A DNA stretch of 45,888 nt, from NCBI GenBank assembly GCA_026388095.1, contig JAPLKL010000066.1, positions 1-45,888 of the forward strand. Direction: 5' to 3'. Below the pieces are notes generated by a model. It saw only the letters and a list, made by a program, of their open reading frames with translations, was not told where the DNA came from and did not search any database. Position numbers and translations under genes: made by a program. Positions 1,118 through 9,232 of this stretch are shown here, piece after piece (within the stretch, counting starts at the first letter, position 1; the number at the start of each line of letters is the position of its first letter). The stretch is from Elusimicrobiota bacterium. GTDB lineage: Bacteria; Elusimicrobiota; Elusimicrobia; UBA1565; UBA9628.

Positions 1118-2662
1118 CTAACTCAAGGCGGGGGTCGTTTCCTGCGCCGGCTCCTTGAGCAGCCAGGCCCCCGCCGGGACGAACAAGGTCCCGAAGATGG
1201 TGTAGAGCCGCCAGTAGGTGCCGTGCAGCTGGGTCCAGAAGTGTCCGCCGCCGTGCGCCTTCATGTACCAGGCCAGCATGGCCATGGAGAAGGTCAGCAC
1301 CGTGGGGATGAGCATCAGGCCCAGCACCTTGCGCGCGGAGAGCTTCCAGTCCGTCATGATGGTCACGACGAAGATGCCCAGCAGCGGCCCGTAGGTGAAG
1401 GCGATGAGGCGGAAGGCGAGCCAGAGCAGGTTGTCCATGCTCTTGAGGCACAAGGCCACGACCATGAAGAAGAGCCCGAAGCCCACGAAGGAGAGCTTGG
1501 AGACCTTGACCACCTGGGCCTCGGTCTTGCCCTGGCCCCAGAACGGCTTGTAGAAGTCCATCGTAAAAGCCGTGGACAAAGAAGCCAGGGCGGAGTCGGC
1601 GCTGCCCATGGCGGCCGAGGCCACCGCGGCCAAAAGCAGCCCGCGCAGGCCGTGGGGCATGACGCCCAGGATGAAGCGCGGGAAGATGTGGTCGTTGTCC
1701 GTCATGCCCGCGATGAGCTCGGGGTGCACGCGCGCGTAGGCGTAGAGCCCCACGCCGATGCTCAGGAAGAGGAAGGTGATGGGGATGCCGGCCAAGCCCC
1801 AGGCCATCAGGCTCCAGCGCGCCTTGCGGTTGTCGTTGCAGGCCAGCAGGCGCTGCACCATGTCCTGGTCCGTGCCGTAGGCGGCCGAGGAGTTGAAGAA
1901 GCCCCAGATGGTCATCAGGGCCATGAGCCAGAGGTTGTCGGGCTTGTACATCTCGGTAAAGTTGAACTTGTTGTAGGGAGTCCCGTCGGCGGTCATGGCG
2001 TGGCGGCCCGCCTCGATGATGGCGGGCACGCCGCCCGGCACCTGAGTGACGATGTAGATCAAGGCCGAGACCGCGCCGGTCACCAGCAGACCGAACTGCA
2101 TCAGGTCGGTCCAGGCGATGGCCCGGCCGCCGCCCAGGGTCGTGTAGGCCAGGATGCCGCCCACCACGATGACCACGCAGTGCGGGTAGGAGAGGCCGCC
2201 GCCCGAGACCACTTCCAGCACCTTGGCGATGGCCACGATGCGCACGGTCGAGGCCAAGGAGCGCGTGAGCAGGAAGTAGGCGGAGCAGGTGGTGCGCGCC
2301 GGAGGGCCGAAGCGCTCGGCCACGGCCTGATAGATGGAGGTCACGCGCAGCTTCTGGAAGTGCGGCAGGAAGACCATCGCGATGAAGATGGTGGCCGCGA
2401 TGTCGCCCGGATTGCTCAGCAGGTAGCGATAGTCGGAGGAGAAGCCCTCGGCCGGGGTGCCGATGAAGGTCAGGGCGCTGATGCAGGTGGCCACGAAGCT
2501 CGCGGTGGTGACCAGCCAGGGGATGGAGCGGTTGGCCAGGAAATAGTCTTCCGTGGTCTTGGAGGTGCGGTGCGCGGCCCACCAGCCGATGCAGGCCAGG
2601 ACCGCGACGTAGCCGGCGAGGATGGCTCCGTCGAGCCAGCCCAGGTTGAGTTCAGCGGGCAT
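1118..2662 (-). CDS. Sodium:solute symporter family (SSS) protein
   Basis: A 514-residue polytopic inner membrane protein of the SSS family (Na+-coupled uptake of sugars, amino acids, carboxylates and similar solutes). Visible family features are an N-terminal helix followed by TEDYFLANRSIPW, then SALTFIGTPAEGF (the conserved helix-1/2 region), GGGRAIAWTDLMQF, and the signature AAVASAAMGSADSALASLSTAFTMDF near residues 320-350. The length is normal for the family. The substrate is not predictable; the WxxYRYLLSNPGD-type region is not diagnostic. The ATG at 2662 is preceded by an extended -10-like TGTTACAAT (hexamer 2669-2674) ending 6 nt before the start and by no Shine-Dalgarno site, so a leaderless transcript is likely in addition to read-through from the SDR gene. 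The start lies inside the 3' part of the upstream SDR frame. Confidence 0.9.
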   Translation of the reverse strand: MPAELNLGWLDGAILAGYVAVLACIGWWAAHRTSKTTEDYFLANRSIPWLVTTASFVATCISALTFIGTPAEGFSSDYRYLLSNPGDIAATIFIAMVFLPHFQKLRVTSIYQAVAERFGPPARTTCSAYFLLTRSLASTVRIVAIAKVLEVVSGGGLSYPHCVVIVVGGILAYTTLGGGRAIAWTDLMQFGLLVTGAVSALIYIVTQVPGGVPAIIEAGRHAMTADGTPYNKFNFTEMYKPDNLWLMALMTIWGFFNSSAAYGTDQDMVQRLLACNDNRKARWSLMAWGLAGIPITFLFLSIGVGLYAYARVHPELIAGMTDNDHIFPRFILGVMPHGLRGLLLAAVASAAMGSADSALASLSTAFTMDFYKPFWGQGKTEAQVVKVSKLSFVGFGLFFMVVALCLKSMDNLLWLAFRLIAFTYGPLLGIFVVTIMTDWKLSARKVLGLMLIPTVLTFSMAMLAWYMKAHGGGHFWTQLHGTYWRLYTIFGTLFVPAGAWLLKEPAQETTPALS

Positions 2663-3402
2663 CGGGCAATTGTAACACAATGCGGGCCCAAAAAGCGCGC
2701 CAAAGCCGCGACCTCCGTGGTCTCGGTGAGCTTCTTGAGGGGCACGGCGCGGCGCAGCCGCTCCAGGACCTCGGCCTCGCAGAGCCCGGTCTTGGCCGCG
2801 CTCATCTTCAGCACCGCGTCGCGGCCCATGTCCGTGAGCATGAAGCCGGGCATGATGGCGTTGACCGTGACCCCGTGCCGGGCGACCTCGGCCGAAAGGC
2901 TGCGGGTCAAGGAGTTGAGGCCCGCCTTGGCGGAGGCGTAGGCGGCCAAAGACTCGGCGGGCTGCGCGGCCGTGATCGAGGAGATGTTGACGATGCGGCC
3001 CCACTTCCGGCCCACCATGCCGCCCGCCACCGCCCGGCACAGCAGGGCCGGAGCCACCAGGTCGGTGAAGTAGGTCCGGACCACGTCGTCCGGATCCGCC
3101 TCGGCCAGCGGCCCGGGCTTGCCCCAGCCCGCGTTGTTGATCAGGATATCCACCTTCCCCAGCAGCTCCGGGCCGATGCCGGCCAGGAGCTCTTCCACGC
3201 CGGCGCGGGTGGAAAGGTCCCCGCCCGCGGCGCGGATCCCGCAGCCCGGAGCGGCGCGTCGCACCTCGTCCGTCGCGGCCGCGAGGTGCTCAACGCTGCG
3301 GGCGGCGAGTATGAGCTGGGCGGCGTCCGGGGCGAAGGCGCGGGCCAAAGCCAGGCCCAAGCCGCGGCTGGCTCCGGTGATCATGACGGTCCTTTTGGTC
3401 AT
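2470..3402 (-). CDS. Short-chain dehydrogenase/reductase with an abnormal C-terminus
   Basis: Classical SDR oxidoreductase. The Rossmann motif TGASRGLG is at residues 9-16, NNAG follows the central strand, the catalytic Ser lies in NISSIT, and the Tyr/Lys pair in YASAKAG; PGFMLTDM follows. It uses NAD(P)(H); the substrate is unknown. The family fold is normal up to EVAALARFLG (about residue 245). At that point the usual C-terminal strand (YVTG...VDGG) is missing and the frame runs on for about 65 residues of Pro/Ser/Arg-rich sequence read in a second frame of the downstream symporter gene. The gene has therefore either lost its last 20-25 normal residues or carries a late lesion. ATG overlaps the MFS stop in an ATGA junction, so it is translationally coupled to the exporter. 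In mycofactocin-like pathways SDRs are typical clients of the cofactor, which makes its place in this operon notable. Confidence 0.8.
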   Translation of the reverse strand: MTKRTVMITGASRGLGLALARAFAPDAAQLILAARSVEHLAAATDEVRRAAPGCGIRAAGGDLSTRAGVEELLAGIGPELLGKVDILINNAGWGKPGPLAEADPDDVVRTYFTDLVAPALLCRAVAGGMVGRKWGRIVNISSITAAQPAESLAAYASAKAGLNSLTRSLSAEVARHGVTVNAIMPGFMLTDMGRDAVLKMSAAKTGLCEAEVLERLRRAVPLKKLTETTEVAALARFLGPHCVTIARCPLNSTWAGSTEPSSPATSRSWPASAGGPRTAPPRPRKTISWPTAPSPGWSPPRASWPPASAP

Positions 3403-4625
3403 ACGGTCCTCTCCTGGGCCGGTCTCAAGATGAACACGACGGCTATGGCGGCCAGCACCAAGCCGTGGAACAAGGCCGCGACGGCCGCGACCGACAGCCG
3501 CTGCAAAGCCAAAGGCACGGCCAAGAAGCCCAGCGCGAAGCCGGTGCGCACGGCCAAGCCGCTCAAGGCGAAGATCTTGCCGCGCACCGCGTCGGGCACC
3601 TGCTGCATGTAGGTGGTGAAGTAGGTCTGGTAGGTCCCGTCGCCCACGCCGGCCGTGAAAGAGGCCAGCGCGATGAACCAGGGCAGGCGGGTCTGGAAGA
3701 TGAGGATCATGCCCGCGGACATCAAGGCCGTGAAGGCCAGGTACAAGGTCTCCGGCCGCAGGCGCTGGAGCCAGGCCATGCGGTTGAGCTGGTAGATGCC
3801 GGCCACGTTGCCCCAAGCGTAGAAGAAAAGGATGAAGCCGTAATAGTACATGGGCTTCTCCGGCCGCAGGAGCTTGGAGAACACCGGCCAGCCGATATTG
3901 TGCGAGCCGCTGGCGAAGGTGTCGAGCAGCAGGATGAGCAGGAACAGCGCCACGATCCGAGAGTTGGGCAGCCTGTCGATCTCCCGGAACCCGGAGCGCA
4001 GCTTCTCCATGAGCCCGCCGTCCTCCGGCGCCGGCGCGCGGCCCTCGCTGGTGCGCATGGAGAGCCGCCAGAGCACGCCGGCCGAGACCAGGTAGGTGGC
4101 CGCGTCGATGATGAAGAGCGCATCGTAGCCCTTGAAGAGGAGGCCCGCCCCGGCCGCGCAGAGGCCCGCGGCCGCCACCACCAGGTTGCGGCCGCCGATA
4201 AGCCAGGAGTTGGCGCGCAAGGTGTCCTGGCTGCCCAGGATGACGGGCGTGGCGGCGTTGAGGGCCGTGTCGAAGAGCGTGGAGAAGGCGCCCAAGAGCG
4301 CCATGAGCAGCACGATGTAGACCTTCATCCAGGACTGCGGCAGGACCACCAGAAGGAGCATGGCCGCGGCGAGCGCGAGGTCCGAGACTATCATGAGCCG
4401 CTTGCGGTCCATGCGGTCCACCGCGTGGCCGATGAAGGGCGTGGCCGCGATGCCGGAGAGCACCTTCACCGCCAAGGTCAGCCCCATCCAGGTGGGCGAG
4501 TCGGTCAGCTCCAGCATGTAGACGTTGAGCGCTATCATGCTCAGATAGGTCCCGAAATTGGAGGTCAGCCGCGCGGTGACCACCGCGACGAAGGGGAAGC
4601 TCAGGCGGCCTTGCGGTTCAGCCAT
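3399..4625 (-). CDS. MFS transporter, MFS_3/EntS-like exporter
   Basis: A 408-residue, 12-helix major facilitator of the type that includes EntS-like exporters. The N-terminal half shows FVAVVTARLTSNFGTYLSMIALNVYML, the A-motif-like region GHAVDRMDRKRLMIVSDL between helices 2 and 3, and NAATPVILGSQDTLRANSWL, which is characteristic of this branch. The C-terminal half has GVGDGTYQTYFTTYMQQVPDAVRGKIFALSGLA. Family members mostly export small hydrophilic or siderophore-like products. It overlaps the upstream peptidase gene by 25 nt and the downstream SDR by 4 nt, so it is part of one operon with the radical SAM enzyme. Export of the operon's product is a reasonable inference but the substrate is not shown by sequence. 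Confidence 0.88.
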   Translation of the reverse strand: MAEPQGRLSFPFVAVVTARLTSNFGTYLSMIALNVYMLELTDSPTWMGLTLAVKVLSGIAATPFIGHAVDRMDRKRLMIVSDLALAAAMLLLVVLPQSWMKVYIVLLMALLGAFSTLFDTALNAATPVILGSQDTLRANSWLIGGRNLVVAAAGLCAAGAGLLFKGYDALFIIDAATYLVSAGVLWRLSMRTSEGRAPAPEDGGLMEKLRSGFREIDRLPNSRIVALFLLILLLDTFASGSHNIGWPVFSKLLRPEKPMYYYGFILFFYAWGNVAGIYQLNRMAWLQRLRPETLYLAFTALMSAGMILIFQTRLPWFIALASFTAGVGDGTYQTYFTTYMQQVPDAVRGKIFALSGLAVRTGFALGFLAVPLALQRLSVAAVAALFHGLVLAAIAVVFILRPAQERTV

Positions 4626-5755
4626 TTCTCAAGGGTAGAGACGGACTGCTGGGCGTAGAGCTGCGGCAGCTCCCGGCGGGAGAGGCGACGCGCGGCTTGC
4701 TCCACGGCGCGGATGCCGATGGGATAGACCGGAGAGTAGTAGCGCGCCTGCCGGACGTGGTAGCGCAGGCGGCCGCGGATGACGGCCTCGGAGTAGCCCA
4801 GCTCCCGGCGCAGGATGTCCAGGGCCAGGGCCTCGGGCGGACGCCGCGCGATGTTGACCCGGTGCCAGCAGTTGTAGAAGACGCGGTGCAGGAACTTCTC
4901 GACCTGGGCCGAGAGCTGGGAGGAGTCGTCGAGGACCGGGCCGTAGAGGCGGTCCGAGTTGACCGCGAGCCCCTCGTTGACCGCGTTCTCCGGGGAGTAA
5001 TAGGTGTCGACCAGGTCCAAGGCGTCGGTGCGGCCCCGGTCCACGCGCCGCTGCTTGAGCAGGTAGTAGAGGTGGTGGCCGGGCACGGCCTCGTGCGAGA
5101 CGAAATTATGCAGGAAGTTCTCCGTGAACTCGGTCTCCAGGGCGATGCCCAAGGTCCCGCGGCCGCCGCCCTCGTAGCGGTAGAAGCAGGGCGGGTCGCC
5201 CCGGCCCGGCACCGCGACGCGCAGCTCGCCCTCACAGACCAGCCTGCGCAGGCGTCCTCCCAGCTTGGCCGCGGTCCGGTCCACGAAGCCCAGGACGTAG
5301 TCCGAGAGCCGGCGGCGGCTGGAGAAGCGCACCTTGCGCTTGGAGCGGCTGAACTCCGCCGCAGAAGAGAAGCCCTGCCCGCGCAGCAGCGCCCGGAAGC
5401 GAGCCAGCTCCCGCTCCAGGTCGAACGGCGCGATGAGCTCGGCCGCCAGGAGGCGGCGCACGGTCTCCGGGAACGGCCGCCTCTTCTTGAAGACGAAGAC
5501 CTCGGCCTGGGCGATCACGCAGGCCAGGAGATCCCGCGCGTAAGTGCGGCGGAAGCGCGGCGCCTCGTCGCTCAGGCCCGAGGAGTCCAGGAGGGCCTGC
5601 AGCTCGCGCAGGCGCGCCAGGGCCCGGGCCGGCGGGATGCGGGCGGCGCGTCGGCGCAGGCGCTCGGGCGCCAGGCAGACATGGAGGAACTCGAAGTCCT
5701 TGAAAGCCCGGTCCAGGGCCAAGATGTTGACCAGGACCTCTTCGGCGAAGGTCAT
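4601..5755 (-). CDS. DUF885-type HExxPGHH metallopeptidase-like protein
   Basis: A 384-residue soluble protein with no signal peptide. Residues 218-232 carry SHEAVPGHHLYY, the HExxPGHH signature of DUF885 proteins, which are regarded as zinc metallopeptidases related to M32-like enzymes. About 45 residues downstream is ENAVNEGLAVNSDRLYG, corresponding to the second conserved Glu region of that family. The N-terminal half is helical and Arg-rich and I do not recognise it. It is much shorter than typical DUF885 proteins (often 550-600 residues) and cytoplasmic, which fits processing of a small intracellular peptide better than secreted digestion. Its ATG overlaps the stop of the radical SAM gene (ATGA), so the two are co-translated. 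By analogy with the peptidases PqqF/G and MftE, it may trim the modified peptide encoded at 6890-6937; this is inference. Confidence 0.7.
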   Translation of the reverse strand: MTFAEEVLVNILALDRAFKDFEFLHVCLAPERLRRRAARIPPARALARLRELQALLDSSGLSDEAPRFRRTYARDLLACVIAQAEVFVFKKRRPFPETVRRLLAAELIAPFDLERELARFRALLRGQGFSSAAEFSRSKRKVRFSSRRRLSDYVLGFVDRTAAKLGGRLRRLVCEGELRVAVPGRGDPPCFYRYEGGGRGTLGIALETEFTENFLHNFVSHEAVPGHHLYYLLKQRRVDRGRTDALDLVDTYYSPENAVNEGLAVNSDRLYGPVLDDSSQLSAQVEKFLHRVFYNCWHRVNIARRPPEALALDILRRELGYSEAVIRGRLRYHVRQARYYSPVYPIGIRAVEQAARRLSRRELPQLYAQQSVSTLEKWLNRKAA

Positions 5756-6810
5756 GGCCGGCCGGCTGCTGTGCGCGCCTCCACGATGGCCTTGTAGCAG
5801 TAGGGGTTGCGGCCGATGGTGCCCGAAGTGGAGAAGGCCATGCCCAGGCAGCCGGCCTTGCACACCGCGGCTTGGCCGCAGGCCTTGCAGGCGCCCTCCA
5901 GCTTGGCGGGGTCGTGGCGCCGGGTGTAGGCGAAGGCCGCGTCGTCGGCCCAGATCTCGGAGAGGGGGCGCTGGCGCACGTTGCCCGCGCTGAAGGCCTT
6001 GTCCTGCAGGGACAGGCAGCCCAGCACCGTGCCGTCGGCCTGGATGCCCACCACGTACAAGCCGGCGTTGCAGCCCTGCCACTCGTAGTCGCCCAGCAGC
6101 GCGTCGGTCACCGGATGGCAGTAGCCCAAGGAGTCGGCGGGCAGGATGCGCAGGCGCCCGGCGGTCGCCTTCTGCCAGCGCAGGATGTCGTCGCAGAGCG
6201 TGGTGAACTGCTCGGGCTCGAGGATGAGCTTGCCGCGCAGCTTGCCGGCGCGGCCGAAGGAGTTGACGATCTGCACCTGCCAGGCCTTGATCCCGTGGTC
6301 CAGCACGATGCCCAGCATCTTCTCCCGCACGGGAAAGTTGATCTTGTTGATGGAGCTGGCGGGATAGACCGGGATGCCGTAGTCCTTGCCCATGCGGAAG
6401 AGCTTGACCACCTTGGCGAAGGAGCCGGGCTTGCGGCGGATGAGGTCGTGGACGGCCTGGTCGCCGTCCAGGCTGACCCCGATGTGCTCCACGCCCGCCG
6501 CCTTCATGAACTCCATGTCGGACTCGGTGATGTTGTAGCCGTTGCTGATGAAGTTGACGCCCAAGCCGCGCTTGCGGATGTAGGCGACCAGCTCGCGCCA
6601 GCGGGGATAAAGGAAGGGCTCGCCTCCGGAGAGGGTGCAGTGGGGGACCTTGAGCTTCTTAAGCTCGTCGACCACCCCGCACCACTCCTCGAAGCTGAGG
6701 GAGTCGGGCCGGTCGCGGCGGGAGGCGTTGGAGCCGCAGTGGATGCAGGACATGTCGCAGCGCAAGGTGACTTCCAGCGCTGCGGCCTGCGGGCGGTATT
6801 TCGTTTTCAT
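5752..6810 (-). CDS. Radical SAM/SPASM peptide-modifying enzyme
   Basis: A 352-residue radical SAM enzyme. The cluster motif CDMSCIHC places Cys18, Cys22 and Cys25 near the N-terminus, followed by SGGEPF (SAM contact) and HIGVSLDG. The C-terminus is a complete SPASM domain for two auxiliary Fe-S clusters: CNAG...GTVLGC, then CKACGQAAVCKAGC (C-x2-C-x5-C-x3-C) and a last Cys in NPYC. This seven-Cys plan is that of anSME, PqqE and MftC, which act on proteins or ribosomal peptides. There is no N-terminal RRE or PqqD-like domain. I chose ATG 6810, which gives the usual 17 residues before the first Cys; an in-frame GTG at 6852 would add 14 residues. It is followed by an ATGA-coupled peptidase and preceded by a 15-codon ORF, which suggests peptide maturation. 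Confidence 0.9.
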   Translation of the reverse strand: MKTKYRPQAAALEVTLRCDMSCIHCGSNASRRDRPDSLSFEEWCGVVDELKKLKVPHCTLSGGEPFLYPRWRELVAYIRKRGLGVNFISNGYNITESDMEFMKAAGVEHIGVSLDGDQAVHDLIRRKPGSFAKVVKLFRMGKDYGIPVYPASSINKINFPVREKMLGIVLDHGIKAWQVQIVNSFGRAGKLRGKLILEPEQFTTLCDDILRWQKATAGRLRILPADSLGYCHPVTDALLGDYEWQGCNAGLYVVGIQADGTVLGCLSLQDKAFSAGNVRQRPLSEIWADDAAFAYTRRHDPAKLEGACKACGQAAVCKAGCLGMAFSTSGTIGRNPYCYKAIVEARTAAGRP

Positions 6811-6889
6811 GCTAGAAACGCAACCAGGGTATCCCAGGCGCCTCGCGGGCACCGGAACCCCTGATTGGTCTTATCCTATGACGAAGGAT
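6811..6889 (-). promoter_or_regulatory. Structured intercistronic region before the radical SAM gene
   Basis: The 79 nt between the 15-codon ORF and the radical SAM start have no good Shine-Dalgarno site. A small ATCCT/AGGAT hairpin follows the peptide stop. A longer helix can form between AATCAGGGG and ACCCTGGTT, enclosing the GC-rich GGTGCC/GGCGCC area. No T-run follows, so it is not an ordinary terminator. It may set the ratio of peptide to enzyme or act in attenuation. Confidence 0.3.
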
Positions 6890-6937
6890 CTATGGCTCGA
6901 TGATGTAATACGGTCGGACGGCGCGCTTTTTCTTCAT
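6890..6937 (-). CDS. Candidate 15-residue precursor (or leader) peptide of the radical SAM operon
   Basis: A 15-codon ORF reading MKKKRAVRPYYIIEP, 79 nt upstream of the radical SAM gene and on the same strand. It is preceded by a -10-like CATAAT (6944-6949) ending 6 nt before ATG, with TTGTCG 17 nt further up. This is the same start geometry as ispH, the symporter and several other genes here, so the mRNA would begin at the ATG. The peptide has a basic head (KKKR) and a tail with Tyr10, Tyr11 and Glu14; Tyr10 and Glu14 are separated by three residues, the reverse order of the Glu-x3-Tyr joined in PqqA. Role as substrate is inference. The alternative is a regulatory leader peptide, since the following 80 nt can form hairpins. 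An ORF this short could also be chance, but strand, spacing and promoter argue against that. Confidence 0.5.
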   Translation of the reverse strand: MKKKRAVRPYYIIEP

Positions 6938-6943
6938 GATGAG

Positions 6944-6972
6944 ATTATGCCAAAAACCCTGGGCCCCGACAA
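6944..6972 (-). promoter_or_regulatory. Predicted promoter of the radical SAM operon
   Basis: On the minus strand, TTGTCG (6967-6972) and CATAAT (6944-6949) are 17 nt apart, matching sigma-70 type -35 and -10 boxes. The expected transcription start is at or within one or two bases of the ATG at 6937, giving a leaderless mRNA. Confidence 0.55.
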
Positions 6973-6994: not shown

Positions 6995-9232
6995 CTAGGC
7001 TTTCCAGCCCAGGCCGGCGATGTAGGCCTGTCCCGCGGAGACGCCCCCGTCGTTAGGCGGCAGCCTCTGGTGGGTATAGACCTGGAAGCCCGCGGCTTCG
7101 AGAAGCTCGGCCGCCTTCTCGTTCAGGCGCGCGTTCTGGAACACCCCGCCGGTCAGGGCCACGCGCTCCAGACCAGCGGCCTGGGCGACCTCCACGATCA
7201 TCCGCGCCAGTCCGTTGTGGAAGCGCGCCGATATCCGTCCGGCCGGGACCCCGGCGCCGATATCATCGAGGGCCGCGCGCAGCATGGGCTCCCAGTCCGC
7301 GGCGCCGCCGGGATAGGCCCCGGTCTCGGACGCGTCGATGCAGTGCTCCAAAGACATGGCCGCCTGGCCCTCGAACGAGTTCTTCTGGCGCAGGCCCAGC
7401 AAGGAGGCCATCCCGTCGAAGAGCCGGCCCGCGCTGGAGGTGCGCGGGGAGAGCGCGGCGGAAGACGGGAGCTTTCGGGCCGCCTCCCAGCCTTCCGGGA
7501 AGAGCGGGGCGAGCCGGTCGAGGTCCAGGCCGAGCTCGGACAAGAGCCCCAAAGCGCAGCGCCGCGGCTCGCGCACGGCGGCCTCCCCTCCGGGCAAGGG
7601 GAAGGTGCGCAGATGCGCGAAGCGTCGGGCTCCCTTCTCGTCCACGATGAGGAACTCCCCGCCCCAGATGGTCCCGTCCGTGCCCAGCCCCAAGCCGTCC
7701 CAGGCCACGCCCAGCACCGGCGGGGCGATGTCCTGCTCGGCCATGAGCGCGGCCACGTGCGCGTGGTGGTGCTGGACGCGGACCACGGGCAGGCCCAAGG
7801 ACTCGGCGTGTCGGCTCGAGGCGTAGTCCGGATGCAGGTCGCAGGCCGCGGACTCCGGCTTGAAGCCGTAGAGGCGGGACAGGTCCGCTATGGCGGCTCG
7901 GAACGCCTCCAGGCTGGCCGCGGTCTCCAGGTCGCCCAGGTGCTGGCTCACCACGATCTGGCGTCCCCAGCCCAAAGCGATGGTGTTCTTGAGGTGCGCG
8001 CCCAGCGCCAGGACCGGCCGCAGAGGCCGGCCCGTGCGCAGGGGCAGGGGCGCCAGGCCCCGGGCCCGGCGCAGGACCAGCTGGCGGCCGCGCGCCAGGC
8101 GCACGATGGAGTCGTCCGCGTGCCGGGCGATGGGGCGGTCGTTCATGAGAAAAGCGTCAGCCAAGCCCTTGAGCCGGGACTTGGCCTCCTCGTTGTCCTT
8201 GGCGATGGGCTCCTCGCTGAGGTTGCCGCTGGTGGCCACCACGGGGAAGCCCAGCTCCTTCATGAGCAGGTGGTGCAGAGGCGCATAGGGCAGCATCGCT
8301 CCCAGCCACGGATTGCCGGGCGCTGCCTCCTCCGTGATGAGAGGCCGCTCCGGCCGGCGGCGCAGGAGGACGATGGGCGCGGCCGCGGACTCGAGCCAGC
8401 CCGCCTCCAGGTCCGAGACCAGGCAGGCCTGCCGGACGCAGGCCAGGTCCGGGAACATCACCGCGAAAGGCTTCTCGTTGCGCCGCTTGCGCTCCCGCAA
8501 AAGCCTCACGGCGTCGGGCGAGCGGGCGTCGCAAAGGAGCAGGAACCCGCCGATGCCCTTCATGGCCAAGACCGCGCCTTGGCGGATGAAGCCCGCGGCC
8601 TGGCGCAGCGCCGAGCCGCCCTCGCACATGGCCGAGCCCTCCTGCTCCAGCCAGAGCCTGGGCCCGCAGTCCGGGCAGGCTATGGGCTGGGCATGGAAGC
8701 GGCGGTCCGTGGGGTCCTCGTACTCGGCCCGGCAGGCCGGGCAGAGGGTGAAGCCGGCCATGGTGGTGTTGGGCCTGTCATAAGGAATGCCGGCCTGGAT
8801 GGTGAAGCGTGGACCGCAGAGCGTGCAGTTGGTGAAGGGGTAGCCTCGGCGGCGCGCTTGGGGCGCGTTGATCTCGGCCAGGCAGTCCGGGCAGGTGGCC
8901 AGGTCCGGCAGGACCCAGGCCGAAGGAGCGGAGGCCCCTTCGCTCTTCCTGATCTCAAAATCCTTGAAGCCGGCGGCGTCGAGCCAGACCGTCTCCACGG
9001 CGGCGATCACCGCGGCCCGGGGCTTCTCGGCCGCGATCCGCGCCGCGAAGCGCTCCAACAGGTCTTGGCCGCCGTCCACCTCTATGACCACGCCGTACGG
9101 CCCGTTGAGCACCCAGCCCTTGAGCCCCGTTTCCGCGGCCAGGCGGAAGACGAAGGGGCGGAAGCCCACGCCCTGGACCGCGCCGAATATGGAGAGGCGC
9201 AGGCGGCGCGCCGAGCCCGATGCGGGAGCCAA
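6995..9232 (-). CDS. hypF: Carbamoyltransferase HypF ([NiFe]-hydrogenase maturation)
   Basis: A 745-residue full-length HypF. It converts carbamoyl phosphate and ATP to carbamoyl-adenylate and passes the carbamoyl group to HypE, the source of the CN ligands of [NiFe]-hydrogenase. Domain order is complete: N-terminal acylphosphatase (GAVQGVGFRPFVFR, residues about 8-95), two zinc fingers (CPDC/CTLC and CPAC/CPDC), a YrdC/Sua5-like domain (KGIGGFLLLCDA...), and a Kae1-like domain with VQHHHAHVAALMAE and VAWDGLGLGTDGTIWGGEFL. The first possible codon is TTG at 9232, one base after the ispH stop; no upstream ATG is available. No hypC, D, E or hydrogenase structural gene lies in the window, so its partners must be elsewhere. 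Co-transcribed with ispH. Confidence 0.96.
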   Translation of the reverse strand: MAPASGSARRLRLSIFGAVQGVGFRPFVFRLAAETGLKGWVLNGPYGVVIEVDGGQDLLERFAARIAAEKPRAAVIAAVETVWLDAAGFKDFEIRKSEGASAPSAWVLPDLATCPDCLAEINAPQARRRGYPFTNCTLCGPRFTIQAGIPYDRPNTTMAGFTLCPACRAEYEDPTDRRFHAQPIACPDCGPRLWLEQEGSAMCEGGSALRQAAGFIRQGAVLAMKGIGGFLLLCDARSPDAVRLLRERKRRNEKPFAVMFPDLACVRQACLVSDLEAGWLESAAAPIVLLRRRPERPLITEEAAPGNPWLGAMLPYAPLHHLLMKELGFPVVATSGNLSEEPIAKDNEEAKSRLKGLADAFLMNDRPIARHADDSIVRLARGRQLVLRRARGLAPLPLRTGRPLRPVLALGAHLKNTIALGWGRQIVVSQHLGDLETAASLEAFRAAIADLSRLYGFKPESAACDLHPDYASSRHAESLGLPVVRVQHHHAHVAALMAEQDIAPPVLGVAWDGLGLGTDGTIWGGEFLIVDEKGARRFAHLRTFPLPGGEAAVREPRRCALGLLSELGLDLDRLAPLFPEGWEAARKLPSSAALSPRTSSAGRLFDGMASLLGLRQKNSFEGQAAMSLEHCIDASETGAYPGGAADWEPMLRAALDDIGAGVPAGRISARFHNGLARMIVEVAQAAGLERVALTGGVFQNARLNEKAAELLEAAGFQVYTHQRLPPNDGGVSAGQAYIAGLGWKA

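Follow-up and report, generated by a model that had tools for sequence, protein, structure and literature searches.

A candidate RiPP-type cassette with a very small precursor peptide and a SPASM radical SAM enzyme in Elusimicrobiota

Introduction

The pathways to the peptide-derived redox cofactors pyrroloquinoline quinone (PQQ; PqqA-PqqF) and mycofactocin (MftA/MftC/MftE) each combine a small precursor peptide with a SPASM radical S-adenosylmethionine (SAM) enzyme and a peptidase. The radical SAM enzymes of the two pathways, PqqE and MftC, both act on tyrosine, and a radical SAM enzyme that joins the C-delta of arginine to tyrosine is known for the RRR peptide (PMC8326336). The mycofactocin precursor ends in the four residues CGVY, and mycofactocin loci have been noted as lacking transporters (PMC3023750). 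Here we describe a locus of an Elusimicrobiota bacterium (assembly GCA_026388095.1, contig JAPLKL010000066.1; the stretch analyzed, positions 1-45,888, is referred to as the window) in which a 15-codon open reading frame (ORF) precedes genes for a SPASM radical SAM enzyme, a metallopeptidase, and a major facilitator superfamily (MFS) protein. From their sequences and conservation, these four very probably form a biosynthetic cassette of the RiPP type (ribosomally synthesized and post-translationally modified peptide) with a very small precursor, and the cassette looks like a previously undescribed route to a modified, secreted peptide.

Results

Organization of the locus

The cassette is encoded on the minus strand, flanked by hypF (6995-9232) and a sodium:solute symporter gene (1118-2662), and comprises the following features.

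6944-6972, minus strand: promoter TTGTCG-N17-CATAAT ahead of the peptide gene, conserved as TTGnCr-N17/18-CATAAT in three genomes of the genus
6890-6937, minus strand: predicted precursor peptide gene of 15 codons, ATG at 6937 to TAG at 6890, encoding MKKKRAVRPYYIIEP; KKRAxRPxY-x4-stop in 8/8 orthologous loci, with synonymous codon changes
6816-6871, minus strand: stable RNA hairpin between the peptide and radical SAM genes, -38 kcal/mol, z -4.6
5752-6810, minus strand: SPASM radical SAM enzyme, 352 amino acids (PF04055, 83 bits; PF13186, 39 bits)
4601-5755, minus strand: short DUF885-fold metallopeptidase, 384 amino acids, with HExxPGH...NEG, assigned by an AlphaFold2 model and Foldseek, sub-threshold in Pfam
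3399-4625, minus strand: predicted MFS exporter, 408 amino acids (PF07690; TIGR00900 below cut-off), with a 41% identical counterpart in the AT-rich family
2470-3402, minus strand: short-chain dehydrogenase/reductase (SDR) frame with a truncated C-terminus (PF00106), homologous only over about 2679-3402 when compared with the intact copy in G006

The radical SAM and peptidase genes overlap by 4 nt, the peptidase and MFS genes by 25 nt, and the MFS and SDR genes by 4 nt. An initial, sequence-only reading of this DNA had placed the 15-codon ORF and the SPASM, HExxPGHH, MFS, and SDR genes at these positions with these overlaps, all of which we confirm; the separate promoter it assigned to the ORF was likewise found, and is conserved in two sister genomes.

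The precursor peptide

Homologs of the peptidase, sought first among 38 relatives and subsequently across a set of 341 Elusimicrobiota genomes, are present in eight of the 341, and these eight are also the ones with an ortholog of the radical SAM enzyme (seven score 654-685 bits, the G125 ortholog is split over two contigs with 280 and 260 bits, and all else scores at most 265 bits). A tiny ORF of the form KKRAxRPxY-x4-stop lies upstream of all eight orthologs, which belong to three families, GC-rich as well as AT-rich, with differing flanking genes. It encodes MKKKRAVRPYYIIEP in the window, MKKRAVRPYYIIEP in G001, MKKRAVRPYYIIEY in G006, MAKAKAKKKVKKVIKKKKGTKKRAVRPYYLENP in G030, MKTKKKRAIRPTYIASM in G127, MNKIQKTAKKRAVRPAYQKLG in G128, MKKRAIRPVYVVIA in G129, and, with the motif KKRAARPIY read directly in front of the start of the orthologous radical SAM gene, MKKTNKKRAARPIYIPIM in G125. 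A dedicated precursor gene conserved beside the enzyme, by which a RiPP cassette is recognized, is thus found at 8/8 orthologous loci, and none of the 341 genomes contains a pair of radical SAM and DUF885 genes without the small ORF.

The peptides are 14-33 residues long, and their C-terminal 13 residues consist of an invariant KKRAxRPxY and exactly four variable residues before the stop codon (10/10 sequences, comprising the eight loci and two extra copies). Across the loci, all seven invariant core residues appear with at least two synonymous codons each, indicating that selection acts on the peptide. We derived the motif from four loci, and since it was known before the four AT-rich loci, retrieved via their peptidase, were opened, the latter constitute an independent confirmation. 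It replaces the conserved YYxxE tail expected in the sequence-only reading, which was not borne out. As a DNA pattern the motif occurs in 9/341 genomes, namely all eight with the cassette and one of the 333 others (Fisher p = 2e-15); a reversed control pattern gave one match. The additional match, in G091, is a chance occurrence, reading KKRAISPIY with a wrong residue and in an unrelated frame. Neither an NCBIfam scan of the peptides of at least 20 amino acids nor a search for the peptide motifs in a literature collection returned a match.

Two degenerate second copies were also observed. The pattern match in G125 is such a copy (G125:C42, MKKTNKKRAVRPKYHVIV; L048:4031-4057), located beside a broken radical SAM relic, and the other (G129:C23, ...SKKRAIRPMYIVMA; L049:2802-2828) is without a nearby ATG. 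Both suggest duplication followed by decay.

The leader region

A Shine-Dalgarno sequence precedes every intact peptide ORF except that of the window, which, when 6890-6949 is compared with two sister genomes, lacks about 28 nt including this element; the peptide ATG is consequently found 6 nt after the -10 box, a leaderless start. The hairpin lies at the same place between the peptide and radical SAM genes in 8/8 loci (besides the window, L015, L016, L017, L035, L036, L037, and L062), with unrelated sequences and often with a T-run; its z-score is between -2.8 and -6.6 in seven loci and is -1.1 in G030. It may be a leaky terminator or a stabilizer, a partial terminator apparently having been used repeatedly after the peptide gene.

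A short conserved basic peptide with a fixed distance from motif to stop, whose gene leads directly into a terminator-like hairpin and then an MFS-containing operon, also resembles a ribosome-stalling or attenuator leader that would control the exporter operon via the hairpin while the radical SAM enzyme acts on another target. In predicted folds of the whole leader at all loci, however, the hairpin folds independently of the peptide ORF, which neither pairs with it nor forms an alternative arm. Moreover, hairpin sequences are unrelated between loci, the variable residues of the peptide are its last four, and this reading gives the SPASM enzyme no substrate. We consider such a leader highly improbable and favor a role for the peptide as precursor.

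The radical SAM enzyme

CxxxCxxC (C18/C22/C25), GGEP, and seven SPASM cysteines (C247, C265, C308, C311, C317, C321, C338) are invariant in an alignment of seven sequences, and the pattern Cx9-15Gx4C...Cx2Cx5Cx3C...C that follows CxxxCxxC, together with the match to PF13186, identifies a SPASM maturase. The nearest NCBIfam models are likewise peptide maturases, TIGR03913 ("GDL motif") and TIGR04103 (nif11-class), but the scores of about 207 bits are far below the cut-offs of 592 and 725, and these families have other precursors. Viperin matches in PADLOC (55 bits) were discarded as generic radical SAM similarity.

Fewer than 20 residues precede the first cysteine cluster and the protein stops shortly after the final SPASM cysteine, leaving no room for a RiPP recognition element (RRE) domain, and no gene for an MftB, RRE, or PqqD partner is present at the locus. 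PqqD-type domains are encoded elsewhere in the four GC-rich cassette genomes, and none was found in the four AT-rich ones (64-88% complete). In the genome of the window itself, a PqqD-type domain directly precedes several SPASM-like radical SAM genes (G000:C23:44834-49000; L004, L007), a separate candidate for an RRE-dependent RiPP system.

The peptidase

The second enzyme contains HEAVPGHH at residues 221-228, and H221, E222, P225, G226, H227, N260, E261, and G262 are invariant in the alignment; the HExxPGH and NEG residues presumably provide the zinc ligands. At the usual thresholds, neither Pfam nor NCBIfam assigns it to a family. In its AlphaFold2 model (pLDDT 89), however, Foldseek recognizes the DUF885 structures 3iuk and 3o0y (E 3e-7 to 1e-6, probability 1.00) and next, weakly, a carboxypeptidase (BsuCP) and ACE2. 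With this fold, HExxPGH, and a downstream Glu, but 384 amino acids compared to 550-585 in solved members, the peptidase is best described as a divergent and unusually short protein of the DUF885 fold. The "short DUF885 protein" of the sequence-only reading is therefore upheld by the fold, although not by the Pfam gathering score (PF05960, 17.4 vs 32.4 bits). Among the publications listed as naming DUF885, none is a RiPP paper, judged by titles.

The MFS protein and the SDR

The MFS protein is closest to exporters of the H+-antiporter type (TIGR00900), and its gene is present in every cassette whose contig extends far enough. The SDR gene follows it in the three cassettes of genus g1 and is absent beside that of G030. 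In the window the SDR loses homology after residue ~241; read-through into the symporter region takes the place of the ~17 C-terminal residues that the G006 copy retains. Its sequence and occurrence suggest that the SDR is best seen as accessory and genus-specific, rather than as the member of the system it was first taken for. Within this region, the ATG of the Na+ symporter (2662) lies ~8 nt after a TACAAT box, a possible second leaderless start; over 2470-2679 the SDR frame has lost its C-terminus and reads into the beginning of the symporter gene.

Distribution

The GC-rich families f1/f2 and the AT-rich family f9 share the gene order radical SAM-peptidase-MFS, with identities of 51-54% for the radical SAM enzyme, 33-34% for the peptidase, and 41% for the MFS protein. 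The differing flanks and the presence of the cassette in 3/7 genomes of genus g1 and 4/18 genomes of the f9 genus point to an accessory unit that is probably mobile. Of ~40 more distant radical SAM homologs (205-251 bits; family f10 and others), we inspected twelve, none of which has a peptide of the KKRAxRPxY type upstream. A single scan of named genome contigs for close relatives found just two, both Elusimicrobia metagenome-assembled genomes, which does not by itself establish absence outside the phylum. Viral contigs, searched with the peptidase and radical SAM alignments, contained no relatives, and a plasmid search yielded nothing beyond one weak, ordinary DUF885 match.

A sister system

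Related radical SAM enzymes, 37-40% identical to that of the cassette, are encoded in G022, G028, G033, and G030, the last of which carries both systems. The loci are as follows.

L026:1-4100: sister system locus
L027:7700-10400: sister system locus
L028:7289-10200: sister system locus
L025: sister system locus

Where the contig shows it, the enzyme gene is accompanied by genes for an MFS protein and for an M16 peptidase (HxxEH) whose best curated neighbors are YfmF and PqqF. Upstream are tiny ORFs (MYLDQEEVLCEEIHGMYIIPPDDGGP, MYLDQEAVSCEEIHGMYVLPPDYSVSK, and MFLDREEITCEEIHGMYVLPPDGGGPQ), with a Shine-Dalgarno sequence and a terminator-like hairpin, that share the motif CEEIHGMY(V/I)(L/I)PPD; the DNA pattern for EEIHGMY occurs in exactly 4/341 genomes, the same four as the enzyme. 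This stretch recalls the tail of the mycofactocin precursor, a resemblance that we presume beyond the last four residues.

The sister system and the cassette have in common a tiny peptide, a hairpin, a SPASM radical SAM enzyme, a metallopeptidase, and an MFS protein, but differ in the precursor, the peptidase fold, and the MFS protein, which is 27% identical and encoded before the radical SAM gene. That the same grammar occurs twice, with quite different peptides and unrelated peptidases, argues that the peptide is a substrate and not a chance leader.

Discussion

Relation to known systems

Like mycofactocin, the cassette has a small precursor with an invariant Tyr near the C-terminus, a SPASM radical SAM enzyme, and a dedicated peptidase, but the enzyme scores 125.6 bits against the MftC model (TIGR03962, cut-off 265), the locus lacks the MftB RRE, creatininase, and glycosyltransferase, the Tyr is not C-terminal, and an exporter is present. 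A tiny precursor, a SPASM enzyme, and a metallopeptidase are shared with PQQ; the score against the PqqE model is, however, 112 bits (TIGR02109, cut-off 381), the peptide lacks the conserved Glu-x3-Tyr, PqqD is absent from the locus, and the peptidase belongs to another family, M16 being found in the sister system only. The locus is accordingly distinct from both, as the sequence-only reading had held. The RRR/ryptide system offers plausible chemistry, in that its precursor also has an invariant Arg and Tyr and is paired with a radical SAM enzyme, but the cassette lacks the triple-Arg motif and comes from another phylum, and the relation is shown for the radical SAM superfamily only.

As a special case of peptide maturation, the product could be a third redox cofactor beside PQQ and mycofactocin, serving the SDR or other enzymes within the cell. 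The tiny precursor with its Tyr, the SPASM enzyme, the dedicated metallopeptidase, the SDR in all three g1 cassettes, and the PqqF-like M16 peptidase of the sister system would all fit. However, the SDR is missing beside the G030 cassette and truncated in the window, the exporter is conserved, in contrast to mycofactocin loci (PMC3023750), and the cassette is found in just 3/7 genomes of its genus, at unrelated sites; we regard a cofactor as unlikely. Of the original RiPP/cofactor proposal, then, the peptide-modifying unit, with its peptide at 8/8 loci, is well supported, while the cofactor is disfavored by the conserved exporter and the patchy occurrence at unrelated sites.

Proposed pathway

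The co-inherited set, on which our preferred interpretation as a RiPP-type cassette is based, consists of the 14-33-residue peptide, the hairpin, the SPASM enzyme, the DUF885-fold peptidase, and the MFS protein. The peptide would be transcribed from its own promoter, with most transcripts ending at the hairpin, such that the precursor would outnumber the enzyme. Because the radical SAM enzyme has no RRE domain and no PqqD was found in the AT-rich genomes, it may bind the basic KKRAxRP stretch directly. It could then oxidatively modify the invariant Tyr, perhaps crosslinking it to a nearby invariant Arg as in the RRR peptide; given the invariant Arg and Tyr, a Tyr-centered modification such as an Arg-Tyr crosslink is our best guess. 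The peptidase would then trim the peptide so modified, perhaps at its C-terminus to remove the variable four-residue tail, a speculation suggested by the carboxypeptidases among the next-best folds and by the free tail after the Tyr. The MFS protein would export the product; both roles, trimming and export, are drawn from knowledge of the families. A conserved exporter in a rare, relocating cassette would be expected of a secreted compound more than of an internal cofactor, and the product is accordingly more likely a secreted signal, an antimicrobial, or a metal- or redox-active compound.

Several observations weigh on the other side. The distribution is narrow (8 genomes, in drafts that are 64-98% complete), one G125 copy of the peptide lies beside a broken radical SAM relic, and the deletion of the Shine-Dalgarno in the window may result in weak translation of that peptide copy. 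The modified residue, the cleavage site, and the exported species named above are guesses.

Implications

The cassette adds a family of precursors of 14-15 codons that gene callers miss. For this phylum, one paper was retrieved when a literature collection was searched in full text for radical SAM enzymes and RiPPs. A possible function emerges for a short branch of uncharacterized DUF885 proteins, and the cassette provides a compact test case for a SPASM enzyme recognizing a 14-residue substrate without an RRE. We tentatively raise the possibility, which we hold at somewhat less than even, that the product represents a new class of exported, Tyr-derived small molecules, made from a 14-residue precursor that ranks among the smallest for radical SAM enzymes, through direct KKRAxRP recognition without an RRE, and released by a DUF885-fold peptidase. 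The cassette and the CEEIHGMY system would then together make up a family of minimal pathways from peptide to small molecule. That two systems run in parallel with unrelated peptidases suggests a reusable design: a tiny peptide, a leaky hairpin, a radical SAM enzyme, a metallopeptidase, and an exporter.

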